Part shown: positions 1,553 to 4,672 of the stretch, piece after piece
Numbering within the stretch: the stretch's first letter is position 1
Layout of the letters: every line of letters begins with the position of its first letter
Source: Candidatus Aerophobota bacterium
GTDB lineage: Bacteria; Aerophobota; Aerophobia; Aerophobales; JAGGXI01
Direction of reading: 5' to 3'
Length of the DNA: 13,964 bases
NCBI GenBank assembly: GCA_021163155.1
Contig: JAGGXI010000077.1
Span: forward strand, 1-13,964
Position numbers and translations under genes: made by a program
The notes under the pieces: generated by a model
Databases searched by the model: none
Seen by the model: only the letters and a program-made list of their open reading frames with translations
What the model was told of the DNA's origin: nothing

Positions 1553-1581
1553 TTGACAATAGAAAAGGTGAGAGATAAAAT
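1553..1581 (+). promoter_or_regulatory. Sigma70-type promoter for uvrA
   Basis: TTGACA (1553-1558), a 17-bp spacer and TAAAAT (1576-1581) give a near-consensus housekeeping promoter pointing at uvrA. Without the inserted MITE at 1586-1777 (plus one 8-bp duplication) the -10 would lie about 17 nt before the ATG. The mRNA leader would then be only about 11 nt, which fits the lack of a Shine-Dalgarno sequence at uvrA. With the insertion, the predicted start site lies in the first bases of the element and the leader grows to roughly 210 nt. Confidence 0.65.
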
Positions 1582-1785
1582 AATAGTAACTATTCAGCCT
1601 GTTCAATTATAGTATGGGGCTAATTGGCTGTTTAGCGTGTAGGGGTGAGACTAATCGCCCTTTGTAAAACAAGAGTTAGAGGTAATTGGGAGGCTAAAGC
1701 CTCCCCTACCCTGCAGAGAGCTTTAATAGGTTGTCGAATCCTGGGCTAAAGTTAGCACAGGGTGCCTGAATAGTTACAAATAATA
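1578..1785. mobile_element. MITE-like element (1586-1777) with its 8-bp target site duplications
   Basis: GTAACTATTCAG (1586-1597) and CTGAATAGTTAC (1766-1777) are perfect 12-bp terminal inverted repeats bounding 192 bp. Directly outside them stand identical 8-bp direct repeats AAATAATA (1578-1585 and 1778-1785), the mark of transposition. There is no coding capacity, so it is a non-autonomous element. It contains a 75-nt REPIN-like hairpin pair at 1637-1711. Part of it, the REPIN and the sequence out to the right terminus, recurs in inverse orientation at about 10190-10295. The insertion lies between the uvrA -10 box and start codon, and the left duplication overlaps the -10. The transposase family is not evident; 8-bp duplications are made by several families. 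Confidence 0.8.
1637..1711. repeat. REPIN-like inverted hairpin pair, 75 nt, nested in the MITE
   Basis: The layout is 6-nt foot GTGTAG (1637-1642), a decayed 18-nt hairpin (1643-1660), a 27-nt spacer, an intact 18-nt hairpin GGGAGGCTAAAGCCTCCC (1688-1705) and foot CTACCC (1706-1711, reverse complement GGGTAG). Both feet carry GTAG when read outside-in, as REP sequences mobilised by RAYT transposases do. Lengths and spacing equal those of the inverted copy at 10221-10295. Confidence 0.75.
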
Positions 1786-1798
1786 ATTGGTAATTATA

Positions 1799-4672
1799 AT
1801 GAGACAAGATAAGATTATCATCAAGGGAGCAAGAGAACATAACCTTAAAAATATTGATTTAGAGATTCCCCGGAATAAGTTAGTGGTGATTACAGGCTTA
1901 AGTGGTTCGGGAAAGTCTTCCCTCGCTTTTGACACTTTGTATGCAGAAGGTCAACGAAGATATGTAGAATCACTATCCAGCTATGCTCGTCAATTTTTGG
2001 AACAGATGTCCAAACCCAAGGTAGACTATATTGAGGGTCTTTCCCCAGCTATTTCTATTGAGCAACGTAAAGCCTCCAGCAATCCCCGCTCCATAGTGGC
2101 TACTCTTACCGAGATCTACGATTATCTAAGACTCCTCTTTGCCCATATTGGCCAACCTCACTGTTATAAATGCGGCAGAAAAATTCGTTCTCAAACAATA
2201 AATGATATGGTAGAAAAAATTATGAGATTCCCTTTAGATTCATCAATTCAGATTCTCTCTCCTTTAGTACGAGGAAGAAAAGGAGAACACAGGGATATAT
2301 TAGAAGAGATAAGAAAAAATGGTTACTTAAGAGTAAGAGTAGATGGAAAAATTAGGCTTTTAGAAGAAGACATATTTTTAGATAAAAATAAGAAACATAC
2401 CATTGAAGTAGTAGTAGATAGAATGAAGATAAAGAAAGGAATAGAGAATAGATTAGCTGATTCTCTGGAGACAGCTACCGACCAGTCAAACGGTTTAGCT
2501 CTGGTTACTTTAAAGGAAGACTCCTCAAGTGAGGAAAAAGAGTCTGTCTTCAGTAGGCATTTTTCCTGTCCTTACTGTGGAGTTAGTTATGAGGAGATTT
2601 CTCCTCGAATGTTCTCATTTAATAGTCCCTATGGAGCTTGCCCTGGTTGTAATGGATTAGGGACAAAACAGACCATCGACCCAGACCTTGTGCTGCCAGA
2701 TAAAACGAAATCTTTAAATGAAGGAGCAATTATTCCATGGGATGAAGGGGTAGGATTCTATAGATGGGCAAGAACAGCCGCCAGATATTATTTCAAGCAA
2801 ATCGCCGCTGTAGCTAAACACTATAAATTCTCCTTAAATACGCCTTTCGAAGATTTACCTTTAAATATTCAAAATATTCTTTTGTACGGCTCAAACTCTG
2901 AAGAGATAGAATTTACTGAAAGAAGAGGGGGGAATTTCTATAATTACTGGGCTCCCTTTGAAGGAGTGATTCCTAATTTAGAGAGAAGATATAAAGAAAG
3001 TGATTCTAACTATGTACAGGAGGAAATCCTTAAATATATAAGAGAAACTCCTTGCCCTGAATGTGGAGGAGCTCGTCTTCGCAAAGAAAGCTTAGCGATA
3101 ACTATCAAAGATAAATCTATTTATGATGTGATTAAAATGAGTGTAAAGGAGTGTAAGGAATTCTTTTATCAATTAGATTTAACTCCACGGGAAAAATTAA
3201 TAGCGGATGAAATTTTAAAGGAAATAAAAAAGAGATTAAATTTTATGAGTAGTGTAGGATTGGACTATATTACACTGGATAGAAAGGTAGCCACTTTATC
3301 AGGAGGAGAAGCAGAAAGAATTCGTTTGGCAACACAGATAGGCTCGGGATTAGTAGGAGTAATTTATATTCTTGATGAACCTACCGTCGGCCTACATCAG
3401 AGAGATAATCAGAAGTTACTTAATACATTAAAAAATTTAAGGGATTTAGGAAATACAGTTATTGTGGTTGAGCATGATAGGGCTACTATAAAAGCAGCCG
3501 ATTATATAATCGATTTAGGCCCTGGACCGGGAGAACATGGAGGGGAAGTAGTTGCACGTGGTAGTTTAAAAGAGATTACATCTTGTCCACACTCTTTAAC
3601 AGGAAAATACTTAAAAGGAGAATTAACTGTTCCTCTTCCTAAATCTCGCCGTCCTCCAGGGGATAACCAATATATAGAAATTATTGGTGCCCAGGAGCAC
3701 AACTTAAAAAAGATAAATGTGAGAATACCTTTAGGAGTATTTATCTGTGTTACCGGCGTTTCTGGTTCAGGCAAAAGCACACTGGTAGAGGAAACATTGT
3801 ATAGAGCTTTAGCTCAGTACTTTTACAAAAGTAGAGTAAAACCGGGAAAGTATGAGAAAATAAATGGTATACAGCATATAGATAAGGTGGTGGTAATTGA
3901 CCAGTCTCCCATAGGGAGAACTCCTCGTTCTAATCCTGCCACTTATACAGGTCTTTTTACTCCCATAAGAAGTCTTTATTCACAAATAGAAGAAGCAAGA
4001 ATGAGGGGTTATCAGCAGGGTAGGTTTAGTTTTAATGTAAAAAAGGGGAGATGCCAGGCTTGCAGAGGAGAAGGAATGATTAAGATTGAAATGCAATTTC
4101 TTCCCGATGTTTATGTGCCCTGTGATGTGTGTAAAGGTAAACGTTACAATAAGGAGACTCTTCAAATAAAATACAAAGGGAAAAATATAGCTGATATTTT
4201 AGAGATGACAGTTGAAGAAGCTTTAAATTTCTTCCGTAATATTCCTCAAATTAAAAGAAAATTAAAGACTTTGTCCGATGTAGGATTAGGATATATAAAA
4301 CTTGGTCAGTCTGCCACAACTTTATCCGGGGGTGAAGCACAAAGAGTTAAGCTTTCCAGAGAACTCTCCAAGAAAAGCACAGGCAAGACATTTTATATTT
4401 TAGATGAGCCTACCACAGGCCTTCATTTTGCTGATATAGAGAAATTACTTAATGTATTAAATGAATTAGTAAATAGAGGAAACACTGTTTTAGTGATTGA
4501 GCACAATCCTGATGTAATAAAAGTTGCTGATTATATTATAGATTTAGGTCCTGAAGGAGGAGATGAAGGAGGTAAAGTAGTTGCTGTAGGAACTCCTGAG
4601 GAGATTATGCAAAATCCCCGCTCTTATACAGGTAAAATGCTGAAAGAAGTACTGCCTAAAAGGCAGGATTAA
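1799..4672 (+). CDS. uvrA: Excinuclease ABC subunit A (UvrA)
   Basis: UvrA is the damage-sensing ATPase of nucleotide excision repair; it loads UvrB on distorted DNA. The 957-aa length is normal. Seen in order: Walker A GLSGSGKS (K39), zinc finger C257/C260-C281/C284, ABC signature LSGGEAER (about 500), Walker [11 protein letters not shown] (D526), second Walker A GVSGSGKS (K659), second zinc finger C752/C755-C775/C778, signature LSGGEAQR (842-849) and Walker [11 protein letters not shown] (D869). No catalytic residue looks lost. I chose ATG 1799 because the family begins shortly before [16 protein letters not shown]; an in-frame TTG at 1787 would add four residues. Neither start has a recognisable Shine-Dalgarno. 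A MITE lies between promoter and start. The gene stands alone, with its own promoter and a repeat after it. Confidence 0.98.

Follow-up and report, generated by a model that had tools for sequence, protein, structure and literature searches.

The excision-repair locus of Candidatus Aerophobota bacterium (contig JAGGXI010000077.1) raises the question of how an apparently intact promoter comes to lie 217 nt from the gene that it serves, and of what the intervening DNA does to that gene. The window, by which we mean the whole stretch of 13,964 nucleotides that was analysed, carries uvrA (excinuclease ABC subunit A, 957 aa) at 1799–4672, with its ATG at 1799; all features are on the + strand unless stated otherwise. 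The product is identified as UvrA by the equivalog NF001503 at 1529 bits, and the gene upstream of uvrA encodes a Memo-like protein. The uvrA promoter, TTGACA-N17-TAAAAT, presents its –35 hexamer at 1553–1558 and its –10 hexamer at 1576–1581, separated by a 17-bp spacer, and scores 11/12 against the consensus. The gap between the Memo gene and uvrA at 1407–1548, on the 5' side of this promoter, contains AT-rich repeats (CTCATTTT, present twice, and CTATTCACCATTTACTATTTACTATTCACTAATTAG) that may be remnants of other repeats.

The distance is accounted for by a discrete element of 192 bp at 1586–1777. Its left terminal inverted repeat (TIR) is GTAACTATTCAG (1586–1597) and its right TIR is CTGAATAGTTAC (1766–1777, – strand), the perfect 12-bp reverse complement of the left end. 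Two identical copies of the 8-bp sequence AAATAATA, to which no strand is assigned, flank the element as target site duplications (TSDs) at 1578–1585 and 1778–1785. The left copy takes in the final four bases of the –10 hexamer. The interior contains no open reading frame of 60 aa or more anywhere in 1586–1777, and the size of 192 bp, the perfect 12-bp ends and this lack of coding capacity are those of a MITE. When the flanks are joined around a single AAATAATA they read ...TAAAATAATA on the left and ATTGGTAATTATAATG on the right, and the distance from the –10 box to the ATG falls from 217 nt to 17 nt. An earlier note on this DNA, made from its letters, had proposed these ends, duplications and span, an overlap of the duplicated bases with the –10 box, and a promoter about 17 nt before the ATG once the element and one duplication are removed. 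The ends, duplications and span are exact on direct reading, the overlap is confirmed for the final four bases of TAAAAT, and the computed distance is 17 nt.

Comparison with relatives bears on the lineage in which the insertion arose. Eight genomes of the same order have a readable uvrA start region; they belong to families other than that of the source organism, their UvrA proteins are about 77–82% identical, and the order is the nearest rank compared. The element is absent before uvrA in all eight order-level relatives. A sigma70-like promoter equivalent to that of the window precedes the gene in seven of them. Its –10 box lies 17, 17, 19, 20, 21 and 26 nt from the uvrA start in six relatives and ends 59 nt before the start in the seventh, while in the eighth the Memo gene is followed almost directly by uvrA. 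What the relatives show of the empty site is thus a conserved architecture at the level of the order; no allele that aligns across a single AAATAATA is among them. When 98 genomes were searched at the DNA level, the matches outside the organism's own genome were just short ones to the core of the element and one weak remnant of its right end. Since the relatives lack the element and keep the promoter close to the gene, the insertion most likely arose in this lineage, and the short uvrA leader would be the ancestral state.

The element is not alone in its genome. GTAACTATTCAG occurs 22 times in the 1.83 Mb (0 for the reversed control), and the spaced two-ended TIR pattern is found at 6 loci (again 0 for the control), which argues that the ends do not occur by chance. 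A search of the genome with the element as query gives 8 copies with both ends and about 10 fragments. Among the two-ended copies, five have perfect 8-bp TSDs (AAATAATA, AAGTAATT, AAAATATT, AAAATTTT and AACTATTA), one matches at 7/8 and two at 6/8, so that the element is multicopy with target duplications of fixed length. The complete copies measure either 190–192 bp (the window copy, L002 and L006) or 205 bp (L003, L004, L005, L008 and L009), and the two lengths differ by a short segment close to the left end. Outside the element the flanks of the copies are unrelated, and this loss of similarity beyond the duplications is the signature of transposition. The earlier note had let its reading of a MITE insertion depend on two observations, further genomic copies with these ends and an uninterrupted promoter-to-uvrA arrangement in relatives. 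With eight two-ended copies plus fragments, and with that arrangement seen in order-level genomes, the reading survives both, and the short ancestral leader that it had proposed is supported by the 17–26 nt of the six relatives. In one copy (L011/L017, G000:C28:5264-5587) the element is split by about 120 bp of pyrimidine-rich DNA (CCTCACCCT...); a broken copy nearby contains this sequence too, which suggests another mobile repeat.

Part of the interior recurs elsewhere. The core at 1639–1750 matches many more places in the genome that lack the GTAAC ends. At least two further repeat families in this genome contain it: one of about 200–245 bp with the ends TTAACCCAGATTCGGCAA...TTGCCGAATCTGGGTTAA, and one beginning GATTTAAGAACTTC. 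Over loci L015–L030, a two-hairpin core of about 100 bp is common to at least three differently ended repeat types. The presence of one core in repeats of differing ends makes these elements look mosaic. As read from its sequence, the MITE is a composite of IS66-type ends and a core that is also found in other repeats.

The ends point to the enzyme that moved them. ISDge4, a member of the ISBst12 group that has been seen to transpose, has the TIRs GTGACTACTCAGCA/GTAACTGCTCAGCA and produces an 8-bp DR on insertion (PMC12898284). The window element presents both the GTAACTxxTCAG-type TIR of this group and its 8-bp target duplication. Among 27 IS66 loci examined, exact CTGAATAGTTAC lies 120–192 bp downstream of the IS66 domain at 12, which come from four genomes carrying same-ended MITEs, and a one-mismatch version lies there at 2 more. 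On the Oceanisphaera plasmid pA, an IS66 element of 1570 bp has exact GTAACTATTCAG at both ends; its reading frame is broken and a matching TSD is absent. Single-ORF IS66 elements of Planococcus (1549 bp) and Chlorohelix (1504 bp) have close-variant ends of the GTAAC type with perfect 8-bp TSDs. Because its ends match those of IS66/ISBst12 elements, we assign the MITE, by its ends, to the ISBst12 type of the IS66 family. Searches of the organism's own genome, which is 93% complete, with PF03050, NF033517 and a full-length transposase query gave no IS66 transposase, and PF03050 has no matches in 16 further genomes of the order. Long TIR-bounded elements at the collected loci contain no transposase recognisable by eye, and no IS66 relatives were confirmed in viral contigs. 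Neither an autonomous element nor an active pair with a transposase of the same genome is thus seen. As no IS66 transposase was detected in genome or order, we infer the partner enzyme from other organisms; and as none was found in this genome at 93% completeness, its copies are probably stranded, immobile relics.

Elements with the same ends and length class are widespread. At least 112 occur elsewhere, in diverse bacteria and archaea, and the matches listed include Methanosarcinales, Altiarchaeales, Planctomycetaceae, deltaproteobacteria, Clostridia and Treponema. Of the 112 listed elements, all with enough flank, 62 have TSDs that are perfect at 8 bp (0.52 expected on shuffled pairing) and none has a TSD perfect at 9 bp. 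The interiors of the listed elements fall into 71 groups, none of which resembles the interior of the window element. Loci L099–L212 present more than 110 elements with identical GTAACTATTCAG ends, mostly 8-bp duplications and about 71 unrelated interiors. A limited search of open-access papers gave no hit for the TIR string and no described IS66 MITE family. Across the listed matches, a single 12-bp end of an under-studied IS66 subgroup is common to many unrelated miniature elements of bacteria and archaea.

The window is thus very probably explained by a non-autonomous MITE that was once mobilised by a single-ORF, ISBst12-type transposase of the IS66 family and that inserted at the uvrA promoter to become a folded leader. 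The 8-bp target, which is AT-rich and overlaps both the –10 box and the start region, would have been cut by the transposase and joined to the element. Repair would then have created the 8-bp duplication, and because this duplication overlaps the –10 box, the box has stayed whole. Insertion and duplication are read from the sequence and from the comparison with relatives. Transcription from the old promoter would start at about 1588, within the left TIR, and read through the element. With the start assumed 7 nt past the –10 box, the predicted leader is of 211 nt (1588–1798), and uvrA would thereby have exchanged a leader of about 11 nt for a folded one of about 210 nt.

This leader is predicted to fold at –73.1 kcal/mol, compared with –60.9 ± 4.5 kcal/mol in shuffles (z –2.7). 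Both ends of the element are paired in the predicted fold, which also contains internal hairpins such as AGGGGTGA/TCGCCCTT at 1641–1662 and, within the element, the perfect hairpin GGGAGGCT/AGCCTCCC at 1688–1705. A long structured leader before an ATG that lacks a Shine-Dalgarno sequence, to which the element adds none, is what one would expect if the insertion lowered or abolished uvrA expression as a disabling mutation. This outcome is improbable, however: the leader has no terminator-like site, the open reading frame is intact over 957 codons, and the predicted pairing close to the ATG does not change when the element is removed. With no better ribosome site, no terminator, no usable promoter and an unchanged start-codon hairpin, uvrA is expected to remain expressed. 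Continued expression with a changed leader is the most likely outcome, and mRNA stability or yield may be modestly altered.

A second alternative concerns the choice of site, namely that the insertions are promoter-directed, with the transposase or the host favouring an open promoter bubble. For the window copy at uvrA (L001), for the copy upstream of the class II fructose-bisphosphate aldolase gene fba (L008) and for L009, exactly 4 bp separate the end of the –10 box from the left junction, and the three promoters score 9–11/12 and point into the element. The offset is seen at 3 of 21 flanks against a rate of 0.6% for AT-rich intergenic 8-mers; the resulting P of about 2.5e-4 stands before correction for an offset that was picked after inspection of the data. 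Against this, among the matches listed from other genomes just 2 of 221 flanks of same-ended elements have that offset, which is about the background rate, and the register could also come from selection or from a preference for AT-rich targets. General promoter targeting by same-ended elements was accordingly rejected, as those listed matches give no excess at that offset. Promoter direction is thus an unlikely explanation of the three sites, and the –10-box register of the copies in the organism's own genome is a lead only. More doubtful still is a broader proposal, in which identical 12-bp IS66/ISBst12-type ends repeatedly capture unrelated interiors of 150–180 bp across many bacterial and archaeal lineages and, in this genome, prefer open promoter regions, so that genes with short leaders (uvrA, fba) would acquire a shared, transposon-derived structured leader as a common post-transcriptional handle.

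The two remaining alternatives fare worse. The uvrA promoter could have been replaced by an outward one located at the right end or across it, since GTTACA-N16-TATAAT is present at 1773–1800 (10/12) and there is a precedent in Neisseria gonorrhoeae, where a Correia element can drive uvrB (PMC10969869). The –10 box of this candidate, however, overlaps the ATG (1799–1801), so that its transcripts would start within uvrA, too late to include the start codon, and the original 11/12 promoter is intact; the candidate was rejected for this overlap, and such a replacement is very improbable. The least credible reading takes the element for a conserved cis-regulatory RNA in the uvrA leader, similar to a riboswitch or an attenuator, and for no insertion at all. 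Its place between the promoter and the gene, a fold more stable than those of shuffles and the presence of other copies just 5' of genes, for example fba (L008), speak for this reading. Against it, the element is missing before uvrA in relatives, which refutes an ancestral regulatory leader, it is carried with 8-bp duplications by many unrelated loci, and it has no Rfam match (the best hit, E 0.57, lies outside the element).

The insertion of a MITE into the uvrA leader is a well-supported case of a known kind of event, and it is a clean one: a miniature transposon rewrites the 5' leader of a core gene of DNA repair, leaves the promoter untouched and has comparative support. With the ISBst12 group, of which ISDge4 is an example (PMC12898284), the window element shares GTAAC-type ends finishing in CAG and an 8-bp target duplication, and elements with matching ends carry the single-ORF IS66 transposase. 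It differs in being of 192 bp, in having no transposase gene and in residing in a genome with no detected IS66 transposase. MITECca01 of Cardinium, derived from IS982 (PMC9769881), is likewise short and multicopy and has the ends of its parent IS, but the IS family is a different one and the parent of MITECca01 is intact in the Cardinium genome. A parallel in position is given by the Correia repeat enclosed elements of Neisseria (PMC10969869), also MITEs, which adjoin a nucleotide-excision-repair gene (uvrB) and at mtrCDE sit immediately downstream of the promoter. The ends of the window element assign it to another transposase family. While Correia supplies a promoter to uvrB, the window element would become the leader of uvrA, and the native promoter is kept.
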